44,554 bases of DNA from Chloroflexota bacterium (GTDB lineage: Bacteria; Chloroflexota; Anaerolineae; Anaerolineales; E44-bin32), in assembly GCA_024277995.1 (NCBI GenBank), contig JAJRUD010000016.1, positions 1 to 44,554 of the forward strand. The letters run 5' to 3'. Position 1 is the first letter of the stretch, and each line of letters begins with the position of its first letter. Shown piece by piece: positions 1,529-28,216 of the stretch. A model generated the notes under the pieces. The model was not told the DNA's origin. It did not search any database and worked only from the letters and a program-made list of their open reading frames with translations. The translations under genes were made by a program, and so were the position numbers.

Positions 1529-2992
1529 ATGGCTGGACTCGTCGGTCAACAACTCGATCACTATCGACTCCTGGAGCAGGTGGGTATGGGGGGCATGGCG
1601 ACCGTATTTCGGGCCATGGACACCCGACACCTGCAGGAAGTCGCGCTGAAGGTGCTCTCGCCCACCATCAGCGGTGACCGGCGCTTTGTACGTCGTTTCC
1701 GGCGCGAAGCGGGGATGGTGGCCCGGCTCGACCATCCGCACATCGTCCCGGTCATCGACTATGGAGAGGCCGGGGGCTACGTCTACCTTGTGATGCCCTT
1801 CGTCGACGGCGAGACGCTCTACGAGCGCATGCGCCGCGGTCCCATCGACGGCGATGACCTGATACGTTGGGTGGTGGGCGTGGCCGAAGCGCTGGAGTAC
1901 GCTCACCGGCACGGCATCATCCATCGCGACGTCAAACCCTCCAATGTGCTCATCGACGAACAGGGCGAGGCCCTGCTCACCGACTTCGGCCTGGCGCGCT
2001 GGATCGAAGGCTCCAATACCCTGACCGGATCCATGTTGATGGGGACGCCGGCCTACGTCTCACCCGAGCAAGGGCGTGGGGAGAAGCTGGACCCGCGCTC
2101 GGATCAGTATTCCTTTGCCGTGATCCTGTACGAGCTGGCGACGGGGCGGCTGCCTTTCGAGGCCGAGGCCCCCATGGCCACGGTGCTCATGCACATCCAG
2201 GAACCCGTCCCGCGCCCGCGCCGCTTCAACCCCGACCTGCCTCCCGCGGTGGATACGGTGCTGCTCAAGGGGCTGGCCAAGCGCCGCGATGACCGCTTCC
2301 CCTCGGTGCTCGCCCTGAGCAAGGCCTTCACCGCAGCCTGGGCGGGGAAGCGCGTTCCTGGATTGAGGCCGCCGCCCGAGCCGGCATCCGTGCCCTACGA
2401 GGCGCCGACCGAGGTGGACGTGAGAGCGGCACGCCCGCGCCGAAGGTCGAGCGCTGTGCTGGCGGGCGCGCTCGGCGCTGCGGCCCTGGCGCTCGTGGGG
2501 TTTCTGGGATGGTCAACCCTGCGGCCCGCCGGGCCGGCGAGCTCTTCGCTGCCCTCGCCTCAGCCGGCCGCCGCGCTTCCGACATCCTCCGCCGGAGTCG
2601 CGGCCCCCACCGCGCCACAACCCACGGTGACCATGGTCCCCGTCACCGCAGCGGATTGCCCGGGGCTGGCGATCCTCTCCTTCGGTGTCGAGGGGAACAA
2701 GGCTCGCTGGCTGCTGGATAACGGCAGCGGCAAGACACTCACCCTGCTCGGCCTGGATCTGGAATGGCCTCAGGCGAACGGCGAAGTAGAAGCCATCGCG
2801 TTCGGCGGGACGGTCATTTCGGAAGGTACGCAGTTCCTGGAAGGGGTTCCCAGGGAGCTGGAAAGCGGCCGTACGGCCGCGCTGGAGATCACCTTCCCGT
2901 GGGGTGCCAGCCCGGCGGACGGTTCCCCCCCGGCGGAATATTCCTTACGGGCGATCTTCGATCAAGACTGTGTGCTCGAGGGCTCCTGGTAG
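1529..2992 (+). CDS. Membrane-anchored serine/threonine protein kinase
   Basis: Hanks-type kinase of 487 residues. The glycine-rich loop (VGMGGMATVF, residues about 18-27), the VALK lysine at K41, the catalytic loop HRDVKPSN (D134), the DFG motif (D152) and the GTPAYVSPEQ activation-segment motif are all intact, so it should be catalytically active. After the kinase domain and a Pro/Arg-rich linker there is one membrane helix at about residues 309-331. A Pro/Ala/Thr-rich stalk then leads to a C-terminal extracytoplasmic domain of about 120 residues with Cys-containing ends and no PASTA repeats. The start at 1529 has GGGGAG five bases upstream; the ORF-track start 40 codons earlier does not look coding. 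The C-terminal domain probably senses an external cue, but I cannot name the family. Confidence 0.9.
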   Translation: MAGLVGQQLDHYRLLEQVGMGGMATVFRAMDTRHLQEVALKVLSPTISGDRRFVRRFRREAGMVARLDHPHIVPVIDYGEAGGYVYLVMPFVDGETLYERMRRGPIDGDDLIRWVVGVAEALEYAHRHGIIHRDVKPSNVLIDEQGEALLTDFGLARWIEGSNTLTGSMLMGTPAYVSPEQGRGEKLDPRSDQYSFAVILYELATGRLPFEAEAPMATVLMHIQEPVPRPRRFNPDLPPAVDTVLLKGLAKRRDDRFPSVLALSKAFTAAWAGKRVPGLRPPPEPASVPYEAPTEVDVRAARPRRRSSAVLAGALGAAALALVGFLGWSTLRPAGPASSSLPSPQPAAALPTSSAGVAAPTAPQPTVTMVPVTAADCPGLAILSFGVEGNKARWLLDNGSGKTLTLLGLDLEWPQANGEVEAIAFGGTVISEGTQFLEGVPRELESGRTAALEITFPWGASPADGSPPAEYSLRAIFDQDCVLEGSW

Positions 2993-3000
2993 CGCTCTTG

Positions 3001-3060
3001 GCGGATGGTCCGCCCTCTCTCGATGTGTCTATCTTCACGACGGGCAGGGGCTTCCTGCCC
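3001..3060 (+). other. Two small hairpins between kinase and aminopeptidase genes
   Basis: GCGGA-TGG-TCCGC (3001-3013) and GGGCAGG-GGCTT-CCTGCCC (3042-3060) can each fold. Neither is followed by a T-run, so they are weak terminator or RNA-processing candidates only. Confidence 0.3.
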
Positions 3061-3088
3061 ATCACACCTTCTCAACAGGAGAAAACTC

Positions 3089-4192
3089 ATGCCCGACCCG
3101 CGCGTCGTCAACCTCGCCCGCACTCTGGTCCACTACTCCACTCGCGTCCAACCCGGTGACAGGGTGGCCATTCGCGCCACGGCGCTGGCTGAACCCCTGG
3201 TGCGCGAGGTCTATCGGGAGGTGCTGCGCGCCGGCGGCCATCCCCACCCCTTTATCAGTCTCCCGGGCCTGCAGTATATTTTCTACAGCGAGGCCCAGGA
3301 AGCGCATTTGAAATACGTCTCCCCCGTCCAAGAAATGATATTGGGCGAATTCGAGGCGATGGTCAATATCTACAGCGAGGCCAACACGCGCGAGCTCAGC
3401 GGCATCGACCCTCAGCGCCAGGCGACGATGGCCCAGACCTACGGCGATCTGATGCAGACCTACATGCGCCGTTCTGCGGAGGGATCCTTCAACTGGGTGA
3501 TCACCATGTTCCCCACTGAGGCCTATGCTCAAGACGCCGAGATGAGCCTGGCGGAGTTCGAGGAGTACGTCTACAGCACCACCTACTCCGACAGCGATGA
3601 CGCCGTCGCCGAGTGGGAGCGTTTCCACGCTTTCCAGCAGAAGCTGGTGGACTGGCTGAAGGGCAAGAAAGAGGTGGTGGTCAAGGGGCCCCACGTGGAC
3701 ATGAAGCTCTCCATCGAAGGCCGCAGCTTCATCAATTCGGACGGCCGCAAGAACATGCCCAGCGGCGAGATCTTCACCGGCCCCGTCGAGGATTCCGCCG
3801 AGGGTTGGGTGCATTTCACTTACCCGGCCGTGCTGCAGGGGCGCGAGGTCACAGGCGTTGAGCTGCGCTTCGAGCAGGGGCGGGTGGTGGAGGCCAAGGC
3901 GGAGAAGAACGAGGAGTTCCTGCTCTCCATGCTGGACAGCGACCCCGGCGCGCGCTACCTGGGCGAATGGGCCATCGGCACCAACAAGAAGATCGATCGT
4001 TTCATCAAGAACATCCTCTTCGACGAAAAGATCGGCGGCACCATCCACATGGCCCTGGGGGCCGGGATCCCTGAGACGGGATCCAAGAACAAGAGCGCCA
4101 TCCACTGGGACATGATCTGCGACATGCGCGACGGCGGGCAGATCTTCGTCGACGGTGAGCTCTTCTACGACTCGGGCGAATTCATGATCTGA
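3089..4192 (+). CDS. M29 family aminopeptidase (aminopeptidase T-like)
   Basis: Cytosolic metallo-aminopeptidase of 367 residues, the usual M29 size, expected to remove N-terminal residues from peptides. It starts MPDPRVVNLARTLVHYS, typical of the family. The C-terminal half carries the conserved dinuclear-metal region, including NEEFL, the GTN segment and the final IHWDMICDMR box. The start at 3089 has AGGAG eight bases upstream; the ORF-track start 28 codons earlier overlaps intergenic hairpins and is rejected. A strong terminator follows directly, so it is probably a single-gene unit or the end of one. No signal peptide is visible. Confidence 0.92.
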   Translation: MPDPRVVNLARTLVHYSTRVQPGDRVAIRATALAEPLVREVYREVLRAGGHPHPFISLPGLQYIFYSEAQEAHLKYVSPVQEMILGEFEAMVNIYSEANTRELSGIDPQRQATMAQTYGDLMQTYMRRSAEGSFNWVITMFPTEAYAQDAEMSLAEFEEYVYSTTYSDSDDAVAEWERFHAFQQKLVDWLKGKKEVVVKGPHVDMKLSIEGRSFINSDGRKNMPSGEIFTGPVEDSAEGWVHFTYPAVLQGREVTGVELRFEQGRVVEAKAEKNEEFLLSMLDSDPGARYLGEWAIGTNKKIDRFIKNILFDEKIGGTIHMALGAGIPETGSKNKSAIHWDMICDMRDGGQIFVDGELFYDSGEFMI

Positions 4193-14892: not shown

Positions 14893-15610
14893 CTTTTCCT
14901 CCCCCGGGGTGAGAATGTCGGCCTTCTGGCCGGAAGGGCTTGCGGGCCCACGCCAGATCGTAGTCCATCTGCCATGGGTAGACGTCGATATCGCCGAGGC
15001 CCAACCGATGCAGGACCTGTGGAAATCGCCGGCGCGAGAAGGTGCGGCCGAGGATGAGCGGCGCCTGCCAGCCCACCCGATTGGTGACCAGGAGCCACCC
15101 ACCGGGGCGCAGCACGCGCACCAGCTCCTGCAGGGTCGCGTAGGGGTTCGGTGTGAACTCGAGCACCTCCAGGCAGGCGACGGCGTCGAAGGTGCTCTCG
15201 GGAAAGGGAAGCGCCCCGGCTATGGATTGTACCCAATGTGTGGCCTGTGAGGGTGTCAGTCGACGCCCGATTTCGATCATGTGCCGGGATGCTTCGGCGT
15301 TGATCAAGGTGCCTGAAAAGAGCAGGGGGTGAGTCAGGGCGCGCGCCAGGCGGCCGCTGCCCGCTCCCACGTCGAGCACCAGCGCGCCCTGCAACTGGCC
15401 GAGGGCGGCGCCGAGCGGTGCCCCCAGGAAGCGGCGCTCCCAATCCCGGTCGAACTGCTTGATGGATTCGTAGCGTCTGGCGGTGAAATCGTAGAGCCAG
15501 ATGACGACCCGCGGGCCCAAATGTGTGCCCTCACAGATCCAGAGCTCCCAGTAGGCCAGGGCGAGGAGGAGCGCTCCACCGATGAGCAGAAACCATCCCA
15601 AGGGTTGCAC
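14861..15610 (-). CDS. Membrane-anchored class I SAM-dependent methyltransferase
   Basis: A 249-residue protein. An N-terminal hydrophobic helix ([17 protein letters not shown]) is followed by a Rossmann methyltransferase domain. The domain has motif [17 protein letters not shown], an acidic motif II (INAEAS), [12 protein letters not shown], and [15 protein letters not shown]. The substrate is unknown; a lipid or quinone-like membrane compound is suggested by the anchor. It begins with GTG and has a weak ribosome binding site. A hairpin (15620-15638) separates it from rpiR. It overlaps the FAH-family gene. Confidence 0.85.
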
Positions 15611-15619
15611 CAGGCAGGA

Positions 15620-15638
15620 CGCCGACCCCGGGTCGGCG
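15620..15638. other. Hairpin between rpiR-like and methyltransferase genes
   Basis: A perfect 8-bp stem CGCCGACC / GGTCGGCG with a CCG loop lies just before the methyltransferase start. No T-run follows on either strand, so it may tune translation or mRNA stability rather than terminate. Confidence 0.4.
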
Positions 15639-15658
15639 CTACGTTGAACTTCGGGGCA

Positions 15659-16519
15659 TCAACGGCGGCCACGGCCGCTGGCGCGGCCGTCACGTCCACC
15701 ACTGGCCAGCCGGCGCGCCATGGCCCGCACCCGTGCGTCCACCTCGCCGAAACGTCCAGGGCGCACTTCGGCGAGCATGCGCACCAGCGCGTAGACGATG
15801 GCTTGCAGCATGACCTGCCCCATCCCGGAGTCGCTGGAAGCGTGGGTGGCCAGCACCAGTTCGGCGTGGCGGGCGGCGCGCGCCGAGGGGGCGGTGACGA
15901 TGGCCGCCGTAGAGGCCTTGGCCGCTCGGGCCTCCTGCAGGGCACGTGCGATGAGCTGGGTTTCCTGCGCGGCTTCCAGCGCGATGACCAGATCGCCCTT
16001 GCGCACGCCGACGACGGCGCGCGCCAGATCGGCCGGCCCGCTGCGGGCCAGATGGATGGTGTAGCCGGCCGCTTCGAGCCAGCACACCAGACTTTGGGCG
16101 GCAGGCAGCGCCATCCCCTCCGCCAGCACCACGATGCGTGTCGCCTTGTCCAGGGCATTGATGAAGCGTTGGGCGTCTTTCTTGTCGAAGCCGCGACGGG
16201 TGAGCTCCATGGCGCGCGTCACCTCGGCCAGGGCGGCCTCGGCCGGGTGCTCGCCATCCTGGGCCGGTCGCTCGTCGAGCAGTTCACGGCGCACCCGCTG
16301 GCGGATCTCGCGTTGTAGCTGCGGATAGCCTGCATAGCCCAGGCGCTGCGCGAAGCGCACCACCGTTGCCGGGTCGACGTCCAGTTTGTGGGCCAATTCG
16401 GTTGCGGTCAGGAACGCGGCATGGGTGTATGAATCCAGCAGGAAATCCGCCAGGCGGATGAAGCTTGGCGAGAGCTGCTGTCGGGCTTGGCGAATACGCT
16501 CTTCGTACGATGCGGCCAT
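15659..16519 (-). CDS. MurR/RpiR family transcriptional regulator
   Basis: A 286-residue regulator. The N-terminal helix-turn-helix (LTATELAHKLDVDPATVVRF, then AQRLGYAGYPQLQ) is the RpiR DNA-binding signature. The C-terminal SIS domain (RIVVLAEGMALPAAQSLVCW) would bind a phosphosugar. The next gene lies only 48 bases downstream, so it may head a longer transcript, but none of the downstream genes is an obvious sugar enzyme. The C-terminus ends in a Gly/Arg-rich tail. A consensus promoter lies upstream on the minus strand. Confidence 0.9.
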   Translation of the reverse strand: MAASYEERIRQARQQLSPSFIRLADFLLDSYTHAAFLTATELAHKLDVDPATVVRFAQRLGYAGYPQLQREIRQRVRRELLDERPAQDGEHPAEAALAEVTRAMELTRRGFDKKDAQRFINALDKATRIVVLAEGMALPAAQSLVCWLEAAGYTIHLARSGPADLARAVVGVRKGDLVIALEAAQETQLIARALQEARAAKASTAAIVTAPSARAARHAELVLATHASSDSGMGQVMLQAIVYALVRMLAEVRPGRFGEVDARVRAMARRLASGGRDGRASGRGRR

Positions 16520-16569
16520 TGGCTCCTATCCGCTGGCTCGCAAGAGGCCATCCTGAGCAAGGCCCGCAA

Positions 16570-16598
16570 ACTATAGCACAAGGCCGCCCGGGGGGCAA
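16570..16598 (-). promoter_or_regulatory. Sigma-70-type promoter for the rpiR-like gene
   Basis: On the minus strand TTGCCC, a 17-base spacer and TATAGT precede the rpiR-like ATG by about 50 bases. It is back-to-back with the tRNA promoter. Confidence 0.6.
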
Positions 16599-16612
16599 AA
16601 GGCCCCGCCGCG

Positions 16613-16641
16613 TTGACTGTGCCCGGGCCCCCCGCTATAAT
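16613..16641 (+). promoter_or_regulatory. Strong promoter of tRNA-Val
   Basis: TTGACT, a 17-base spacer and a perfect TATAAT. The -10 box ends only six bases before the first base of the tRNA, so transcription should start at or within a few bases of the mature 5' end. Confidence 0.85.
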
Positions 16642-16647
16642 GCCTTC

Positions 16648-16721
16648 GGGCGGATAGCTCAGTTGGTTAGAGCACTTCTCTTACACAGAAGGGGTCGCAG
16701 GTTCGAGTCCTGTTCCGCCCA
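16648..16721 (+). tRNA. tRNA-Val (anticodon TAC)
   Basis: A 74-base cloverleaf. Acceptor stem GGGCGGA/TCCGCCC; D arm GCTC-AGTTGGTTA-GAGC; anticodon arm CTTCT-CTTACAC-AGAAG with TAC at 16682-16684; a five-base variable loop; T arm GCAGG-TTCGAGT-CCTGT. The discriminator base is A. The genomic sequence continues CCT, so the CCA end is not fully encoded. Confidence 0.97.
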
Positions 16722-16728
16722 CCTCCTT

Positions 16729-16752
16729 GCCCCCAGACATGGGGGCTCTTTC
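16729..16752 (+). terminator. Terminator after tRNA-Val
   Basis: Stem GCCCCCA / TGGGGGC with loop GACA, followed by TCTTT, starting eight bases after the tRNA. Confidence 0.8.
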
Positions 16753-17245
16753 CATGTTCGGCCCCTGGATGCAATGTGGCGTTCAGCTGCATAGGTCCAT
16801 GGGCTTGTTGCGCGCGTGGCGCCCATCAGGTCGGAGGGGCCTTGGGAAGCCGTTCCAGCGGACCGGGTGTCACCAGGGGGCCGAGATCGGCCCGGAAGCA
16901 AGGGGCCAACGGAAGAAAGGGCGGTCCGGCCGATCGGGCTGCAACAGCAGAGGGATGGGCATGAGTTTTGCAGCTCTTGATGGGCCATGATACCCTCTGG
17001 CGGGGCATGCAACATCAATTGCTCTGAAAGGACCGCAGGCCGTTCGCCTCGGCGTGTTGCGACCGTGGGGCACTTGCTCGCACGGGGTGCGAACCTGTTC
17101 CGTTCACCGGCCGGGAGCCGCGGGGGTGTGATAGCCTCAAGCAGCAGCCCCTGCATTTGCGGGGCGACTTGGCTAAGCGAGCATGCACAGCCGGGTCAAC
17201 CGGCCTTGGGCGCCGGCGCCCTTCTTCGTCCGGGAGGATTGCGGG
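16753..17245. other. Intergenic stretch with no recognised gene
   Basis: About 490 bases between the tRNA terminator and the M1 peptidase start. Short ORFs in the track here show no family resemblance and lack ribosome binding sites. I see no clear promoter, repeat or RNA. Confidence 0.5.
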
Positions 17246-18832
17246 GTGAAACCTCGACTCTTGTTGCCGCTCTCCATGCTGTTCCTGCTTTTCGGTTGTC
17301 TGCCTGCCGCCGAGCGTGATCCCACGCCCAGCGCACGTCCCCCCAGCGGCACGATCACCCTGCCGCCAGCATACACCGCGACGACGGAGCCCACACTCAC
17401 CCCGACGCTCACACCCATCCCTACGCCGGACCTGCCCATCGATGATCTGGCGTCCCAGGCGGCGGGGTTGCTGCCTGAGTTCGAAGGTGACCTGGCATCT
17501 CTGGTGTCGGCGACGCGCTATGCCATCGACCTGCAGGTCGAGTTCGATCCACAAGGTGAACGGGCGACCCTGCGGGGTGTGGCCCGCATCCGTTTCATCA
17601 ACCCGTTGTCGGAGCCCCTGGCAGACGTGGTCCTGATGTTGTGGCCCAACGATGCGCAGTATCGGGCGGAGATGGAGGCCGGACCGGTGTGGGTGGGCGA
17701 GCTCATGGTGGAGCCGGAACCCATTCTGGAGGGACTGGCCCTGCGCGTCCCGCTGCCGGAACCTCTGGCTGCCGGGTCCGTGCTGAATCTCAACCTGCCC
17801 TTCCGGATCGACACCTCGGGGCCCATCGGCGACGCGACGCCCCAGCGTTTCGGCATCACGAATGGCGTGCTGCTGGCGCCCACCTTCTATCCCCTGGTGC
17901 CGCGGCTGGTCGATGGGGAATGGCAGGCCGAGCCGGCCCCGGCGGGCGGCGATACCACAAATTCCGAAATCGCCTTCTACGACGTGCGCATCAGCGCGCC
18001 GGCGGAGTTCGACATCGTGGCCTCCGGGGTGGAAATAGAAAGGACGACGCTGGAGGATGGCAGGCAGCAGGTGCGGTTTGTCAGCGGGCCCATGCGCGAT
18101 TTCGCCTTCGCGCTGGGAGAGTTCGAAGTTCGGGAGCGCAGCGTGGACGGCGTCAGCGTGCGGGCCTGGGTCCTGCCCAAGCACCAGGACCAGATGGGGC
18201 GCATGCTGCGCGCCGCGGCCGACCAGGTTCGAATCATGAACGACCTGGTGGGACCCTACCCTTATCCCGAGCTGGACGTGGTCGACGCGCCCGGCGCTTT
18301 CGGGGGTATCGAGTACCCGGGTCTGGTCTTCGTCGGCACGCTGGGAACATCGTGGCTCATCGAGCCCACCGTGCACGAGGTCGCCCATCAGTGGTTCTAC
18401 GGCCTGATCGGCGATGATCAGGTGCATGAGCCGTGGCTGGACGAGGCGGCGGCGACCTATGGAGAGGTGCTGTACTACGAAGGCGTGGGGGACAGCGGCA
18501 AGGCCACGGGGCTGCTCGACAACTTCCGTTCCTGGTTGCGCGATTCACGAAACCCCAAGAAGCCCATCGGCCTGGGCGTCGCGCAGTACGCCTCGGAGAG
18601 GGATTACGCACTCTACGTCTATCTGAAGGGCGCCCTCTTCTTCGACGCCTTGCGCAACAGGCTTGGGGACCGGGTCTTCTTCGACTTCCTGCGTGCCTAT
18701 TATCAGGAGAATCGCTACGGCTTCGCAGACTCGGATGCCTTTCAAGAGGCGGCCGAGTCTGCCTGCGCCTGCGACCTGGAGGCCATGTTCGACCTGTGGG
18801 TCTATGAGGGGGGTGAGGTGCCGCTGCCCTGA
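17246..18832 (+). CDS. M1 family metallopeptidase lipoprotein
   Basis: A 528-residue surface lipoprotein. It begins with a signal peptide and lipobox (LLFGC), then a Thr/Pro-rich stalk (TATTEPTLTPTLTPIPTPDL). The M1 N-terminal beta domain follows, and then the gluzincin core: HEVAHQWFYG at H377 and, exactly 18 residues after HEVAH, the third zinc ligand E in WLDEAAATYGE. The substrate-binding GGIEYPGLVF box, equivalent to GAMEN, is also present. It would trim peptides outside the cell. The GTG at 17246 has GGGAGG upstream and places the signal peptide at the N-terminus; the longer ORF-track start is rejected. Confidence 0.9.
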   Translation: MKPRLLLPLSMLFLLFGCLPAAERDPTPSARPPSGTITLPPAYTATTEPTLTPTLTPIPTPDLPIDDLASQAAGLLPEFEGDLASLVSATRYAIDLQVEFDPQGERATLRGVARIRFINPLSEPLADVVLMLWPNDAQYRAEMEAGPVWVGELMVEPEPILEGLALRVPLPEPLAAGSVLNLNLPFRIDTSGPIGDATPQRFGITNGVLLAPTFYPLVPRLVDGEWQAEPAPAGGDTTNSEIAFYDVRISAPAEFDIVASGVEIERTTLEDGRQQVRFVSGPMRDFAFALGEFEVRERSVDGVSVRAWVLPKHQDQMGRMLRAAADQVRIMNDLVGPYPYPELDVVDAPGAFGGIEYPGLVFVGTLGTSWLIEPTVHEVAHQWFYGLIGDDQVHEPWLDEAAATYGEVLYYEGVGDSGKATGLLDNFRSWLRDSRNPKKPIGLGVAQYASERDYALYVYLKGALFFDALRNRLGDRVFFDFLRAYYQENRYGFADSDAFQEAAESACACDLEAMFDLWVYEGGEVPLP

Positions 18833-18971: not shown

Positions 18972-20309
18972 TCAGCCGCGCCGTCGGTAGCGGATCAGCG
19001 TCGGGCGCCGGGGGCGAGAGGTGGTCGAGGTGTACTCGGCCTGCACCTGGGGCTGTGCCAATTCGAGTTCAAAGCGCCTCAGCAGCAGGCTGCAGATGAC
19101 CTTCATCTCCTGGTAGGCGAAGCCCATGCCCAGGCACTTGTGGCGCCCGCCGCCGAAACCGATCAGGCTGAAGGGCACCTGCCGGTCCTCCTGGCGCGGC
19201 GGCGCGAAGCGTAAGGGGTCGTAGCGGTCGGGATCGGCGAAGACCTCGGGCAGCCGGTGTGCCACAGCGGGCGAGACCACGCTCAGCCAGCCCGCAGGGA
19301 CGTGATAGCCGCCCAGATTGTAACCCTGGCGGTTGTAGCGCATGAGCAGGCGGGCCACCGGTTGGGTTCGCTCGGTCTCCTTCAGAGCCCATTCCAGATG
19401 GTTGAGCCGGCGCAGGGTGTCCAGATCGATGCTCTCGTCCTGCGGGACAAGCCGTTTCACCTCTTCCTGGACTCTGGCCAGGTACTGCGGATGCTGCAGC
19501 AATTGCACCAGGCCCCAACTGGCGTGGCCGGCGGTGGTCTCGTGCCCGGCGAAAACCAGACCGATGACCAGGGAGAGGACAACCTCCTCGGGAGGCGGAT
19601 TGCCGTCGGAGTAGGTGGCCTGCAGGAAGGTTTGCAGGAAGTCCTGGTGCGTCTCCTGGCTGGCGCGGCGCTCGGCGATGACCTGGCGCACGATGGATTC
19701 CAGCTTGCGGCGGGCCCGATCGCGACGGATGAAGCGGGGCAGGGGCAGGTTGGGAGGCAACATGAATTCGATGCCGGCTGCCAGGTCGCGGTAGAGACGC
19801 CAGAAAAGGTCGCCCATACGATGGCGGAAGGCCTCGCCCAGCAGCGCGCTGGCGGCGATGTACATGGTCAAACGCTCGAAAGCGCCAATCAGTTCGAAGG
19901 TGCCTGAGTCGCCGAGGGTATCCATCCAGGCCCTGGTTTCCTTCGCCATGGTCTGCACGTAGCCCGCCATCTTGCGCGCCTGGAAGGCCGGCAGCAGCAT
20001 GCGTCGCTGCTCTTCGTACTCCTTTGGGCCGGCGGCGAAGAAGATGTGCTCGCCGAACATGGGGATCAGGAAGCGGTAGACTTCCTGCATGGAAAGGCGG
20101 CCGTCGGTCTCCTGGAAAAAGAAAGCGTGGTATCGTGGACCGATGAGCACCGCGGCCGGTTGCCGGCCCAGCCGGATGGCGAAAATGGGGCCGTGGGCCT
20201 GGTAGCCGCGGCGGATGAGGGCTATGGGATCGCGCCAGAAGTCGAGGGCGTTGCCCAGCAGAGGCAGGCCGCGCACCATGGGAGGAAGGGGGCTCTGCAA
20301 GCTCATCAT
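18972..20309 (-). CDS. Cytochrome P450, CYP51-like clan
   Basis: A 445-residue haem monooxygenase. It shows the I-helix oxygen-activation motif FAGHETTAGHASW, the ExxR motif in LKETERTQP, and the haem-thiolate loop FGGGRHKCLG with C392. The B'-C region VYRFLIPMFGEHIFFAAG and the order of motifs resemble sterol 14-demethylase (CYP51) and related P450s, though the classic CYP51 GHHTS signature reads GHETT here. There is no membrane anchor. Redox partners are not in the window. Two adjacent ATGs (20309, 20306) sit after AAGGAG; the second has better spacing. The substrate is probably a terpenoid or fatty acid (inference). Confidence 0.92.
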   Translation of the reverse strand: MMSLQSPLPPMVRGLPLLGNALDFWRDPIALIRRGYQAHGPIFAIRLGRQPAAVLIGPRYHAFFFQETDGRLSMQEVYRFLIPMFGEHIFFAAGPKEYEEQRRMLLPAFQARKMAGYVQTMAKETRAWMDTLGDSGTFELIGAFERLTMYIAASALLGEAFRHRMGDLFWRLYRDLAAGIEFMLPPNLPLPRFIRRDRARRKLESIVRQVIAERRASQETHQDFLQTFLQATYSDGNPPPEEVVLSLVIGLVFAGHETTAGHASWGLVQLLQHPQYLARVQEEVKRLVPQDESIDLDTLRRLNHLEWALKETERTQPVARLLMRYNRQGYNLGGYHVPAGWLSVVSPAVAHRLPEVFADPDRYDPLRFAPPRQEDRQVPFSLIGFGGGRHKCLGMGFAYQEMKVICSLLLRRFELELAQPQVQAEYTSTTSRPRRPTLIRYRRRG

Positions 20310-20684
20310 GCTCCTTTGGTGCAGGAGACGGGCTCAGCACATTCTACCACCGGCTCGTGACGTGCTGTTTCAGGGGGAAACCTTCCAGGCATTTCTCTCG
20401 CCGTCCATTATCGCCGCCCGAGGTTGCTCTGAGGGGAGAGGATGGGGCGGGAAGCCGTCCCGATCGATGTCCCCGGGCCAGCGGCGGGGCAGATGGGCCG
20501 CAGTGCCGGCTGTGGCCATCTTGATGGATATCCACTGCGGTGAGCGCGCAGCGGAAGAAGGGCGGGGGCCGAGACGTGATACCTGTCCTTGACCCCGATT
20601 CGGGCGGGTCGTACAATCAGATTGTCTGACATTACTCTGCAGGGCCCGCCATGGGCGGGCCATTCCTCACCTATGGAGCCCCCC
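20310..20684. other. Intergenic region upstream of glyA-gcvT
   Basis: A 375-base region between the divergent P450 and glyA-gcvT genes. It holds the glyA-gcvT promoter, a palindrome after the -10 box, and an 8-bp hairpin GGCCCGCC-ATG-GGCGGGCC (20643-20661) shortly before the start codon. I looked for a glycine riboswitch and did not see its conserved core. Confidence 0.55.
20589..20617 (+). promoter_or_regulatory. Promoter of the glyA-gcvT fusion
   Basis: TTGACC, a 17-base spacer and TACAAT. The -10 box ends 67 bases before the chosen ATG. The palindrome TCAGA-TTG-TCTGA (20617-20629) starts at the last base of the -10 box and covers the likely transcription start, so it could be an operator. 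Confidence 0.75.
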
Positions 20685-23600
20685 ATGTCCGATCTTCTGT
20701 TTCGTGGCACGCTGGCTGACCTTGACCCCGATCTCCACGAGTTGACCCAGATCGAGGCCGAGCGCCAGTTTCGCAAGTTGATCCTGATCCCCTCCGAGAG
20801 CGCCGCGCCGCTGGCTGTGCGCGAGGCGCTTTCTTCAGCCTTCCAGAACATCTACGCCGAAGGCTACCCTGACGAGGCGACGCGCCGCATGTCGCAGGAC
20901 GAGATCCTCGACCTGGAGGCGCGCCTGGCCCATTACCGCCGCTACTCGGACCCGCGCTACTACAAGGGCGTCGAGTACGCTGACGCCGTCGAGGCCCTGG
21001 CTCGCCGGCGGGCGGCGGAAGCTTTCGCCGCCAACGGCCTGGACGCCGATGATCTCTGTGTCAACGTGCAGCCGCTCTCGGGGGCGCCGGCCAACAACGC
21101 CGTCTACACTGCTCTGGTGGAACCCGGGGACGTGGTGATGGGCCTGGATCTGCTCCACGGCGGGCACCTCTCCCACGGCTCCCCCGTGAACCGCTCCGGC
21201 AGGTTCTATCACATCGTCCATTACAGCGTCGACCCGGAGACGGAGCAGATCGATTACGACGCGGTGGAGGCCCTGGCGCGCGAGCACAAGCCGAAGATGA
21301 TCATCGCCGGCTTCTCCTCCTACCCCTGGAAGGCGGACTGGGCCCGCTTCCGCGCCATCGCCGACGCCGTGGGCGCCTATCTGCTGGCGGACATTGCCCA
21401 CGTGGCCGGGCTGGTGGCCGCCGGCGTCTACCCCTCACCCATCGGCATCGCCGACGTGGTCACTTTCACCACTCACAAATCGCTCTGCGGCCCGCGCGGC
21501 GCGGTGATCATCACCCACTCGCGCAAACTGGCGCGCAAGCTCGATCGCGCTGTCTTTCCCGGCGAGCAGGGTGGCCCGCACGTCAACGTCATGGTGGCCC
21601 AGGCGCTGGCTTTCAAACTGGCCACCACGGATCAATTCAAGACCTTGCAGAAGCAGGTGCTCGCCAATTGTGCTGCCCTGACCGAGGCCCTGCGCGAGGC
21701 CGGCTTCCGCATCCCCTTTGGCGGTACGGACACACACCTCACCAACCTGGACTGCAAGTCCATCGTCGGCCCTGACGGTACTACGCTCTCCGGCGATCTG
21801 GCGGCCCGCATCCTGGACATCGCCGGGGTCGTCGTGAACCGCCAGACCATCCCCGGCGACCGTTCGGCGCTGCGCCCCAGCGGCATCCGCCTCGGGACGC
21901 CGTGGATCACGCAGCGCGGCTTCCGCGAAACGGAGACCAGGGAGCTGGGCACGATCATCGCTGACGTGCTGAAGGCCTGTACGCCCTATAGCCTCCCCGG
22001 CCGCCGCGGGCCCGTGGCGCGGGCCAAGGTGGACTGGGATGTGCTGAACCGGGCCAAGATCCGGGTGCGTGAGCTGGCCACCAGCATGGGTATCGACTTC
22101 GATCCGCCCAGCCATGGGTATCCCCACTTCTATTACCTGGACGATCCGCCCCCCCAGGCTCCCTTCGCGGTGATCGAACTGGAGGGTGAGGCGGCCGAGG
22201 CTCTCTTGCGTTGGGTGACCGCGGCGCGACCCGACGCCATGCGTGCCGGCGATGTTGTGCGCACCACTTTGTACACGCCGCGCAAGGCCGTCGAGGCTGT
22301 GCTGGAGCGGGGCGAGAGCGCCTGGCGGCTCACGCTGGCCTCCGAGCAGGCGGTGCTGGCCCTGACCTGGCTGCGCGATCTCTCCGACGGCTACGTCACC
22401 GTCGACCCCCAGGACCTGGCGCGCAAGCTGCCCGGTCCGGTGGTGGTGCGCCTGGTCGGGACGGCCGAGGCCATGCCCGAGGCGCAGGAAGCGACCGGCG
22501 CCGACAAGCCCTGGTATTTGGGCATCAGCGGAGGGGAGGGCGAGCCCCTGCCGGCCTTCGAGTGGCAGGAAGGGGAAGGCGAGCTGCGCCGCACGGCGCT
22601 TTACGAAACCCATAAGGCCATGGGCGCCAGGATGGTGCCCTTCGCCGGGTGGGAGATGCCCGTCTGGTACACGGGCGTGGTGGAGGAGCACCTGGCCACC
22701 AGGCAGGCCGCCGGCCTCTTCGACGTGAGCCACATGGGCGTCTACCAGGTGGAAGGGCCGCAGGCCTGCGCTTTCCTGGACAGCGTGGTGACCAATGACG
22801 TGGCCGCGCTGGCGGTGGGCGAGTCGCTCTACACGCAGTTCCTCGACCCGGCTGGTGCGGTCATCGATGACACCATGATCTACCGCAGGTCCGAAGGGGC
22901 CTATCTGGTGGTGGTCAATGCCGCCAACGACGACAAGGACTGGGCATGGCTCAACGCCGTGCGCGAAGGCCGCGTGCGGGTGGACGAGGCGCGGCCGTGG
23001 GCCAGGGCGTTCGGCCTGGATTGTCGCCTGAGGAACCTGCGCGATCCGCAGGAGGGCGAAGACATGCGCGTCGACATCGCCCTGCAGGGTCCCAGGAGCA
23101 GGGACATCCTGCTGGCCCTGGGTTGCGACGAGGCCACGGCGAGCCGCTTGAAAGCGCTGCCCTGGGCGGGCGTGATGGAAGGGGTTTTCGGTGGCATCGA
23201 CCTGGTGGTGAGCCGCACCGGCTACACCGGTGAGCGGGTGGCTTTCGAACTCTTCGTGCACCCCGAGAAGAGCGTGGAGCTGTGGAATAAGCTCCTGGAG
23301 CAGGGCGAGACCTTCGGGCTGAAGCCCTGCGGATTGGGGGCGCGCGATTCGCTGCGAACCGAGGCCGGCCTGCCGCTCTACGGCCACGAGATGGCGGGCG
23401 AGATGGAACTGGGGGTGGGCGACGCCGGCTTCGCGGCCTACGTGAAGACTTACAAGCCCTGGTTCATCGGCCGGGAGGCCTTCCTGGAGCAGGAGGCCAA
23501 ACGTGAGTTCGAGGTGGTGCGCTTCCGCTTCCTGGACAAAGGCGTGCGCATGGCTCACTATGGCGACCCCGTGGTGGATCGACGCGGCCGGGTGATCGGC

Positions 23601-23810
23601 CGGGTCACCTCCTGTGCCGTCGACAGCGAGGGATATCTGCTGGGGCAGGCGCACATCAAGCGCAGCCACATTGGCCAGGGCACGCCCATCGCCATCTTCC
23701 AGAGCGCGCCCAAACAGGCCGGCAAGCCGCCGGCCGAACTGGAGCCCGGAGATCGTGTTGCGATCCCCACGCCGGCTGAGGTCCTTTCACGGTTCCCCAA
23801 GAAGCGCTGA
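20685..23810 (+). CDS. glyA-gcvT: Fused serine hydroxymethyltransferase / glycine-cleavage T-protein
   Basis: A single 1041-residue frame. Residues about 1-445 are [19 protein letters not shown] near the start, GVEYADAVE, the PLP-lysine motif [13 protein letters not shown] (K265), and [15 protein letters not shown]. It interconverts serine and glycine with tetrahydrofolate. Residues about 637-1041 are Gcv[70 protein letters not shown] and a C-terminal barrel. GcvT moves the aminomethyl carbon of glycine to tetrahydrofolate. The middle, about 450-636, is neither and resembles a degenerate GcvT/YgfZ-like fold. The start at 20685 has GGAG six bases upstream. The fusion joins the two folate steps that make and cleave glycine. 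No gcvH or gcvP is in the window. Confidence 0.95.
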
Positions 23811-25255: not shown

Positions 25256-28216
25256 ATGACGAATCGTTCCGCAGTGACCAAAACACTTTATCGATGGCTG
25301 ACCCTGTCGCTGCTCATCGCCTTCGCGATGGGCCTGCTGGGGGTGATCAATGCCGCCCAGGCGGCAGGTGTGGTTTCTATCAGCGAGATCCGCATCGATC
25401 AACCAGGCACGGACAACGATGAGTACTTCGAGCTGGCCGGTGACCCCGGGGCCTCGCTGGATGGCCTGACCTACATCGTCATCGGCGACGGGACCGGGGG
25501 CAGCGGGGTCGTCGAGGCCGTCGTCGACCTGACCGGTTTCACCATCCCGGCCGGCGGCTACTTCGTCGCCGCCGAGAGCACCTTCACCCTGGGCGCGGCT
25601 GACCTGACGGCCAGTCTCAATTTCGAGAACAGCGACAACGTTACCCACATGCTGGTGCGCGACTTCACGGGCGCCAGCGGGGACGACCTGGATACGGATG
25701 ACGACGGCGTGCTGGACGTCACCCCCTGGTCGCAGATCGTGGATTCGGTGGCCCTGCTGGAGACGGTAGGCAGCGGTGATCTGGTCTACAGCGATACGAC
25801 CGTGGGCCCGGACGGCAGCTACGTGCCCGGCCACGCGTTCCGCTGCCAGACGGGCTGGGAGATCGGCGAGTTCGGCACCGGCGTCGACGACACGCCGGGG
25901 GCCGAGAATGCCTGCGCCACCGGGCCCGTCCCGACCCCCACCCCCACGGTGCCCCTGGTCTCCATCTACGACATCCAGTTCACCAGCGACCCCTCCGGGG
26001 TCTCGCCCTACGCTGGCCAGACCGTCACCACGCGCGGTGTGGTCACGGCCTTCTTCTACGCCGGCGGCAGCCGCTACACTTTCATCCAGGACGGCAGCGG
26101 CCCCTGGAGTGGGCTGCTGCTCTACAAGCCCGACGGCTACGTCAACGTCGGTGATCTGGTGGAGGTCACCGGCGACGTGAGTGAGTACAAGGGCCTGACC
26201 GAGATCGCCTTTGGCCAGGTGACCGTGCTCACCTCGGGCAACCCGCTGCCGGCCCCCGAGACCGTCGCCAGCGGGGAGGTGGCGCAGGAGCAGTGGGAGA
26301 GCGTCCTGGTGCGCCTCGAGCAGGTCACCGTCACAGACGCCGATCTGGGCTATGGCGAATGGCTGGTGGACGACGGCAGCGGAGGCGCCCGCATCGATGA
26401 TCTGGGCAGCTACAGCTACACACCGCAGGTGGGCGATACCCTGGCCTACGTGCAGGGCCCGCTGTTCTACAGCTACGGAGAATTCAAGATCGAGCCGCGC
26501 GACGATGGCGACATCCTGCAGCGGGCCACCATCATGCAGATCCAGGGCGACGGCCAGTACTCGCCCTACGCCGGGCGAACCGTCGAGACCACCGGCGTAG
26601 TGACGCTCTTCACTGCCAACGGCTCCAACTGCTGGCTGCAGGATCCGGAAGGCGACTGCGACCCTGCCACCTCGGACGGGATCTTCGTCTCCGGCTGCGC
26701 CTACCCCAAGCAGGGCAGCAAACCGCAGGTCGGCGACTCCGTGCGCATCGTGGCGCAGGTTCAGGAACAGCAGTATGGGAATGCCCTGCCGCTGACCCGT
26801 CTGCGCAAGGTGGCGGAGATCGAGGTGCTGGCCAGCAGGCAGCCGCTGCCAGAGCCGGTGGAGATCACCGATCTGCCCGACGAATCCATCCCTGAAGCGA
26901 TCGCCTTCTGGGAGCCGCTGGAGGGCATGCTGGTCTCCCTGCGCGAGGCGCGCGTTGTGGGGCCGACCTCGCGCTACGGCGAGTTTGCCGTGCTCACCAG
27001 GCGAGACGCCCGGCCCGGCTCCGGCTACTACCCGCAGACCAGGCAGATACTGCTGCGCAGCCTGGGCGGCGAAGAAGTGGACTACAACCCTGAGCGCATC
27101 CTGATCGACGACAGCACGCTCGATGAGCCACTCCTGGTCAGGCCGGGAGATCGGGTGCGGTCCCTGGTGGGCGTGGTGGACTACACCTACGGCAACTACA
27201 AGCTGCAGCCGGCCGATATCGAGGTCAAGAAGCAGAGGATGCATGGGATGTCCGGCGGCATGCGCCACGGTCCCATGAGCGGCCTGACGATCACGACCTT
27301 CAACGTGGAGAACCTCTTCGACCTGGTGGACAACCCGAACAAGCAGGACGAGCGCAGCACGCCGACGCCCGAGGAACTGGAGACCAAGCTCAGCAAGCTG
27401 GCGCTGGCCATCGGCGTCGAGATGCGCCTGCCGGCCATCATCGTCGTGCAGGAGGTGGAGAACACCGCCATCCTGCGGGAATTGGGCGACCGGGTGAACG
27501 CCGCCGCAGGCACCGACTATCAGGCGGTCTCCTTCGAGACCAGCGACGTGCGCGGCATCGAGGTCGGATTCCTGTGGGACGCCAACCGCGTCACACTGGT
27601 GGAGGCCTACCAGTTGGATGACAGCATCGTGCCTGGCGTCTCGGCTGCCTTCGGCCCCTCCAGCCCCAGCCCGGGGCGCGAGCCCCTGGTGGGCGTCTTC
27701 GACGTGGGCGGGGCGCAGATCACCATCGTCGGCAACCACTTCAAGAGCAAGGGCGGGGACGATCCGCTCTTCGGTGTGAACTGGCCGCCGAGTCGAGTGA
27801 CCGAGGTCCAGCGCAAGGCGCAGGCGCGCGTCGTGCGCGACTTCGTGAACACCATCCTGGATGCCGACCCTGAGGCGCTGGTGGTGGTGGCCGGCGACCT
27901 GAACGACTTCCCCTTCAGCGAGCCGGGTGAGGGCCCCGACAACCCCGTCGCCATCCTGGAGGGCGGTGATGGCGAGGTGCCGCTGACCAACCTGGTCTGG
28001 CAGGAGAAGGACGCCGAGCGTTTCACCTACATCTACGATGGCAACAGTCAGGTGCTGGACCAGATCCTGGTCAGCCCGGCGCTGCTGCGTTTCGTGCGCG
28101 GTGTCGACATCCTGCACTTCAACGCCAGCTACCCGAGCGCGTTGGGCGAGGATGCCACCACGCCGCTGCGCGCCTCGGACCATGATCCGGTGGAGATGCG
28201 CCTCCGTATCCGATAA
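25256..28216 (+). CDS. Secreted endonuclease/exonuclease/phosphatase (ExeM-like) protein
   Basis: A 986-residue exported protein. The signal peptide (LTLSLLIAFAMGLLG..AQA) is followed by a lamin-tail-like beta domain (VVSISEIRIDQPGTDNDEYF), a PTPTPT stalk, and two or three OB-fold-like repeats each opening SPYAGQTVTTRGVVT or SPYAGRTVETTGVVT. A short His/Met/Gly-rich segment (RMHGMSGGMRHGPMSG) then leads into the catalytic EEP domain from about residue 678. Its motifs are TTFNVENLFD, VVQEVENTA (metal Glu), GNHFKSKGGDD, GDLNDFP and SDHDP, all intact. It is expected to degrade extracellular DNA, as ExeM-type nucleases do. AAGGAG lies upstream of the ATG. A terminator follows. Confidence 0.92.
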   Translation: MTNRSAVTKTLYRWLTLSLLIAFAMGLLGVINAAQAAGVVSISEIRIDQPGTDNDEYFELAGDPGASLDGLTYIVIGDGTGGSGVVEAVVDLTGFTIPAGGYFVAAESTFTLGAADLTASLNFENSDNVTHMLVRDFTGASGDDLDTDDDGVLDVTPWSQIVDSVALLETVGSGDLVYSDTTVGPDGSYVPGHAFRCQTGWEIGEFGTGVDDTPGAENACATGPVPTPTPTVPLVSIYDIQFTSDPSGVSPYAGQTVTTRGVVTAFFYAGGSRYTFIQDGSGPWSGLLLYKPDGYVNVGDLVEVTGDVSEYKGLTEIAFGQVTVLTSGNPLPAPETVASGEVAQEQWESVLVRLEQVTVTDADLGYGEWLVDDGSGGARIDDLGSYSYTPQVGDTLAYVQGPLFYSYGEFKIEPRDDGDILQRATIMQIQGDGQYSPYAGRTVETTGVVTLFTANGSNCWLQDPEGDCDPATSDGIFVSGCAYPKQGSKPQVGDSVRIVAQVQEQQYGNALPLTRLRKVAEIEVLASRQPLPEPVEITDLPDESIPEAIAFWEPLEGMLVSLREARVVGPTSRYGEFAVLTRRDARPGSGYYPQTRQILLRSLGGEEVDYNPERILIDDSTLDEPLLVRPGDRVRSLVGVVDYTYGNYKLQPADIEVKKQRMHGMSGGMRHGPMSGLTITTFNVENLFDLVDNPNKQDERSTPTPEELETKLSKLALAIGVEMRLPAIIVVQEVENTAILRELGDRVNAAAGTDYQAVSFETSDVRGIEVGFLWDANRVTLVEAYQLDDSIVPGVSAAFGPSSPSPGREPLVGVFDVGGAQITIVGNHFKSKGGDDPLFGVNWPPSRVTEVQRKAQARVVRDFVNTILDADPEALVVVAGDLNDFPFSEPGEGPDNPVAILEGGDGEVPLTNLVWQEKDAERFTYIYDGNSQVLDQILVSPALLRFVRGVDILHFNASYPSALGEDATTPLRASDHDPVEMRLRIR

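Follow-up and report, generated by a model that had tools for sequence, protein, structure and literature searches.

We analyzed a stretch of 44,554 nucleotides from a Chloroflexota bacterium (hereafter, the window). One unbroken frame on its forward strand, from the ATG at 20685 to the stop codon at 23808-23810, encodes a protein of 1041 residues and has no internal stop codons. An earlier note on this DNA had described the protein as a complete serine hydroxymethyltransferase (SHMT) joined to a complete glycine cleavage T-protein (GcvT), and both identifications stand: they fit the Pfam and NCBIfam scores as well as the catalytic residues, which match those of E. coli. The count of two domains does not. 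There are three, and the middle one is a decayed second copy of the T-protein. The AF2 model of the full protein has three domains and is confident (pLDDT 91, pTM 0.87), and the pTM suggests a defined domain arrangement. The features of the locus are listed in Table 1.

The gene is probably transcribed on its own, as both the cytochrome P450 gene upstream and the Flp-pilin gene downstream lie on the opposite strand. The earlier note had also given the gene its own promoter, and we found a good match to the consensus (10 of 12 positions), which ends 67 bases upstream of the start codon. The hairpin after the stop codon is unique in the genome and has no long T-run on the + strand; it is consistent with a one-gene transcript. 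We found no functional link between the fusion and its neighbors in the window (the P450, an M1-type peptidase, and Flp pilin). Also, a search for riboswitches or known RNAs near the gene in the window gave just one tRNA.

Table 1. Features of the fusion locus and its surroundings. Positions are those of the window; residue numbers are those of the 1041-residue protein unless E. coli is named.
Feature	Position	Strand	Evidence
Fusion gene, SHMT - remnant GcvT - GcvT, 1041 aa	20685..23810	+	Open frame; full-length relatives
SHMT domain, residues 1-435	20685..21989	+	PF00464 and NF000586 above cut-off; AF2 model versus 1dfo
SHMT stretch with 26-residue insert, residues 63-90, between active-site Y55/E57 and Y65 (E. 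coli)	20871..20954	+	Alignment
Codon of K265, PLP-binding lysine (E. coli K229)	21477..21479	+	Alignments
Middle domain, residues 437-632: N-terminal helix and half of a GcvT folate-binding domain	21993..22580	+	AF2 pLDDT 90; Foldseek
GcvT-homologous part of middle domain, residues ~493-595, catalytic Asp lost	22161..22469	+	hhalign; alignment with near full-length copies
Most conserved stretch of middle domain, W-L-R-x-L-S-D-G-Y-V ... P-G-P-V, residues 562-587	22368..22445	+	Nearly invariant in A1 and A3; kept after gene split
GcvT (T-protein) domain, residues ~631-1041	22575..23807	+	PF01571 and TIGR00528 above cut-off
Codon of D728, catalytic Asp (E. coli D97)	22866..22868	+	Alignment with E. 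coli GcvT
Extra ~20 GcvT residues common to middle copy (approximate place)	22953..23030	+	W-to-LQGP spacing
Promoter-like site, sigma-70-type, TTGACC-17-TACAAT	20589..20617	+	Consensus scan 10/12; shuffles mean 0.4
Perfect 16-bp hairpin with 4-base loop, terminator-like, after the stop codon	23832..23867	+	dG -36.6 kcal/mol, z -8.7
Cytochrome P450 gene, upstream of the fusion, divergent	18972-20309	-	
986-aa protein with C-terminal endonuclease/exonuclease/phosphatase domain (PF19580), possibly a secreted nuclease	25256-28216	+	

Both enzymes have intact active sites

The N-terminal domain is similar to PF00464 (E = 1.1e-126; 423 bits, versus a cut-off of 27) and to NF000586 (437 bits, versus a cut-off of 335), and its AF2 model fits E. 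coli SHMT (1dfo) with a TM-score of 0.94, normalized by the target. All twelve of the residues that we checked are the same as in E. coli, including Y55, E57, Y65, H126, D200, H203, H228, K229, and R363. So, the protein has the fold, the PLP lysine, and the checked residues of bacterial SHMT (GlyA, EC 2.1.2.1). Unlike the stand-alone enzyme, it has attached T-protein lobes and a 26-residue insert in its active-site region. Between positions 60 and 63 (E. coli numbering), 43/43 fused or split members have 28 residues, while 20/20 stand-alone SHMTs have 2. The score against PF00464 is also lower, at about 390 bits versus about 500-590 for stand-alone SHMTs.

The C-terminal domain is similar to PF01571 (GCV_T; E = 8.2e-84) and scores above the cut-off for the equivalog TIGR00528 (273 versus 236 bits) and just below the cut-off for NF001567 (297.8 versus 300 bits). 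Pfam's C-terminal barrel, PF08669, is not listed for this protein at an E threshold of 0.1; the AF2 model has strands at 942-1004. The catalytic D97 of E. coli GcvT (EC 2.1.2.10) is conserved, as are the other residues that we checked (H51, R224, D225, and E230). D97N is the named mutant of a T-protein structure in the PDB (3a8k). This T-protein differs from E. coli's in having no separate gene and in having extra residues before the LQGP motif. The spacing from a conserved W to LQGP is 43-47 residues in fused GcvTs, versus 25-32 residues in stand-alone GcvTs. The bifunctional nature of this one-carbon enzyme is well supported by its sequence.

The middle domain is the remnant of a second T-protein

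The ~195 residues that separate SHMT from GcvT are a third domain and not a mere linker. When we compared a profile of the middle domain to the C-terminal GcvT with hhalign, we obtained E = 6e-16 over 104 columns; against stand-alone GcvTs, the profile-profile E value was 7e-12. The best structural matches to its AF2 model in the PDB, using Foldseek, are T-proteins, dimethylglycine oxidase/dehydrogenase, sarcosine oxidase, and YgfZ/Iba57. These matches cover ~100 residues with TM-scores of 0.3-0.4 (query-normalized), which fits half a domain. Dimethylglycine oxidase/dehydrogenase, sarcosine oxidase, and YgfZ/Iba57 also use the GcvT fold as a module, in proteins that are larger or have no role in cleavage, but there the partner is a flavin oxidase or is absent, and here it is SHMT. 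We rejected the idea that the middle domain is an extension of SHMT, as it has no similarity to SHMT (hhalign probability of 1%).

In two relatives (L131 and L135), the middle copy is a nearly full-length GcvT domain. The copy in L131 retains the catalytic DD pair (as VIDD) and is 39% identical to the C-terminal copy of the same protein. In both of these near full-length copies, the W-to-LQGP spacing is 46 residues, so the extra residues are common to the middle and C-terminal copies. In the window, the second half of the middle copy (about half of a GcvT domain) and its DD pair are gone, and the remnant ends with the motif KPWYLG, which is the counterpart of KPWFIG in the C-terminal copy.

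If considered by itself, the window's middle copy has no match in Pfam, as might be expected if it were an unrelated linker domain that resembles GcvT by chance. We consider this extremely improbable. The isolated middle domains of 27/43 members do match PF01571, and the profile-profile similarity, the near full-length copies with the 39% identity and the VIDD of the better one, and the shared extra residues all indicate common ancestry with GcvT.

Distribution of the fusion

We scanned the genomes of 84,980 species and kept the best 80 loci. All 80 of these relatives are 60-74% identical to the query and align over essentially its full length. Cultured carriers among them are Bellilinea caldifistulae, Anaerolinea thermolimosa, Longilinea arvoryzae, Leptolinea sp., and Ornatilinea apprima. 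We also examined a sample of 400 Chloroflexota genomes. The fusion is present in all 36 sampled genomes of the same order (34 intact and 2 broken by contig ends), so the earlier guess that such fusions occur in Chloroflexota was correct. In the rest of the class, some families have the fusion, one has a split form, and others lack the fusion. Elsewhere in the phylum, we tallied about 25 more genomes with the fusion. None of about 40 full-length matches in this sample has a stop codon.

The earlier note had pointed to a frameshift or an assembly error at the junction as a possible problem. With ~100 full-length relatives from other assemblies, such an error is excluded: the chance that two adjacent genes were artificially united is negligible, given that every one of the best 80 relatives is full length, that cultured isolates are among them, and that the matches in the phylum sample are free of stop codons.

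A genome can also contain two full fusion genes. In one case, they share a strand and are separated by ~4 kb (L039:8001-11135 and 14918-18046); in another, they are on two contigs (C93 and C111) of genome G192.

The fusion is the sole SHMT and the sole T-protein found in some genomes

In the genome that contains the window (G000; 86% complete), the fusion is the only match for SHMT and the only match for GCV_T, although a second copy might lie in the missing part of this genome. It is likewise the sole SHMT gene and the sole GCV_T gene in the near-complete genomes of four relatives (G104, G168, G176, and G216). The H and P proteins, which are the partners of GcvT, are encoded in G000: contig C183 has gcvH (1807-2169), gcvPA (2184-3503), and gcvPB in a row, with no gcvT there. 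Some other relatives have further GcvT-fold genes of other kinds, many of which are in ~800-aa frames.

In some relatives, the gcv genes are near the fusion. For instance, locus L064 has the gene order gcvH-gcvPA-gcvPB-fusion, with a gap of 54 bases. The gcv genes are within a few kilobases of the fusion in L016, L042, L043, L068, and others; about ten loci are closely linked. In 43/76 neighborhoods (e.g., L026), a class-I aminotransferase is directly 3' of the fusion on the same strand; it is absent beside the window's copy. This aminotransferase resembles 2-aminoadipate and multi-substrate transaminases and is close to PDB entries 1x0m and 2egy. Another neighbor is a putative kinase-like gene with a TGS domain, which adjoins gcvPB in G000 (C183, 5185-6981; L141). 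It has 39 related loci, and in many relatives it is near the fusion.

Origin and natural variants

In separate trees of each enzyme and in a concatenated tree, the fused SHMTs cluster together, as do the fused GcvTs, and the stand-alone enzymes fall outside (SH-aLRT support of 100 for SHMT and 99-100 for GcvT). The near full-length middle copies cluster with the fused C-terminal copies and not with stand-alone GcvTs, although long branches weaken their exact placement. Because both deep branches (L131 and L135) in the concatenated tree have near-complete middle copies, the ancestor was probably SHMT-GcvT-GcvT, and the first copy of GcvT then decayed. These trees point to a single origin, in which SHMT was fused to GcvT and GcvT was duplicated in tandem. 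In most lineages, the first copy would then have been reduced to half a domain that lacks the catalytic aspartate.

In one family (f6; L122-L128 and L137), the gene is split into SHMT with the middle domain (~590 aa) and GcvT. The two genes are adjacent in 4 genomes and on separate contigs in 2. A fused-only clade that excludes the split family was rejected by an AU test with the concatenated alignment (p = 0.0002); with GcvT alone, such a clade was not rejected (p = 0.25). Based on the concatenated test, the split is a secondary fission. In the GcvT that is now encoded separately, much of the extra stretch is missing (W-to-LQGP spacing of 31-34 residues, versus 43-47 in fused proteins). The SHMT half retains the middle lobe through the WLRALSDGYVIFD...PGPV motif. 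Further splits seemed to be present in family f24 (L133 and L138-L140) and in L142, but these were due to contig ends or overlapping frames and we did not count them as fissions.

In another family (f51; L117 and L119, from G105 and G153), the fusion and its SHMT are intact and the T-protein's site is lost (D97A, H51A, a changed R224, and others). G105 contains a separate intact gcvT (L156) in addition to this type of fusion. The retention of the lobe by the split SHMTs, and of the fusion by proteins that have lost the T site, suggest that the middle lobe matters to the SHMT half independently of T-protein activity. The half domain now probably has a structural role within the SHMT half.

In the fusion from genome G116 (L120), both active sites are altered: Y55D, Y65N, and H228Y in SHMT, and D97S in GcvT. 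We omitted this protein from later trees because active-site residues are lost in both halves. It is perhaps a repurposed paralog.

We also found a protein that unites these two enzyme families in the reverse order, in Vescimonas fastidiosa (Bacillota; NZ_AP023416.1, 366692-369337; L207:1995-4640). This GcvT-SHMT protein has 881 residues, is annotated as gcvT, and is followed by gcvH, gcvPA, and gcvPB. It differs from the Chloroflexota proteins in its domain order, in lacking the middle domain, and in having a very divergent SHMT (144 bits). Given these differences, the two enzymes were joined independently.

Proposed function

Because we found no other SHMT and no other T-protein in the window's genome, the fusion would carry the net reaction between two glycine and serine. 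The SHMT domain would interconvert serine and glycine using THF and 5,10-methylene-THF. The T-protein domain would transfer glycine's aminomethyl carbon between THF and the lipoyl H-protein, which is encoded separately. Together with GcvH, GcvPA, GcvPB, and a putative dihydrolipoamide dehydrogenase, this would give 2 glycine = serine + CO2 + NH3 + reducing equivalents, and the reaction could run either way. In Chloroflexus aurantiacus, glycine cleavage and SHMT combine to 2 glycine + NAD+ + H2O = serine + CO2 + NH3 + NADH (PMC4686737). FTHFS is present in G000 and in 10/15 other genomes, so formate could also feed methylene-THF.

Might the SHMT half be the only catalyst, with both T-protein lobes acting as regulatory or structural modules that bind folate? 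Family f51 has kept the fusion without a functional T site, with a separate intact gcvT in G105, and most members of the family have a non-catalytic middle lobe. Nevertheless, we consider this very unlikely: every T-protein residue that we tested is intact in the window's protein and in nearly all of the other members that we examined. Also, the five genomes without another GCV_T gene do contain gcvH and gcvP. We think it highly probable that the protein is a bifunctional SHMT and T-protein that descends from a single SHMT-GcvT-GcvT ancestor and whose first GcvT has shrunk.

The fusion sets side by side two enzymes that make or use methylene-THF, one of them for glycine and the other for serine. 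A parallel is bifunctional DHFR-TS, a single chain that also unites two folate enzymes acting in succession; those enzymes are unrelated to these, and their channelling has been studied. For the SHMT-GcvT fusion, channelling of methylene-THF is plausible, and it has indirect support: the fusion is the only copy of both enzymes found in its genome, it lies in the gcv operon of a relative, and the same enzymes were joined independently in Bacillota. More specifically, the decayed middle T-lobe, the insert in SHMT, and the extra residues in GcvT might together build an interface through which 5,10-methylene-THF is handed straight from one active site to the other, between T-protein and SHMT. We propose this tentatively, as it is more doubtful than not.

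Instead of channelling, the fusion might serve stoichiometry or co-expression. The two enzymes would be made 1:1, with the identities that we propose, and the one-carbon unit would diffuse freely. We see this as a serious possibility, with slightly less than an even chance of being correct. The T and H proteins are classically soluble and exchangeable (textbook knowledge), and in one family of the clade the gene has been split, with the parts either adjacent or distant, which implies that the covalent fusion is dispensable. Family f51, whose fusion persists with a dead T domain, is further indirect evidence that the fusion is not essential. On the other hand, the single chain has been retained across several orders and families of Chloroflexota, and a reverse-order fusion arose independently in Bacillota. 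The shortening of GcvT's extra stretch after fission also hints at contacts that are specific to the fused chain.

Implications

Both enzyme families are known, as is the idea of a bifunctional folate enzyme. Here they come together in a class-wide fusion that carries a decayed duplicate of one of its own domains. A literature search, to which most subscription journals were inaccessible, found no description of an SHMT-GcvT fusion, and the architecture may already be listed in automatic domain databases. Pathway surveys that expect separate gcvT or glyA genes could misjudge many genomes of Chloroflexota.

The folate one-carbon unit that SHMT and the glycine cleavage system have in common is central to one-carbon metabolism and to the reductive glycine pathway. 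Channelling between them is hard to test with separate proteins. The sole-copy fusion and its split, half-inactivated, near-fully duplicated, and reverse-order relatives are a ready set of constructs for tests of coupling. If the lobes and inserts do form an interface between the two sites, then glycine cleavage or synthesis and the formation of serine would be a single coupled step in these Chloroflexota.
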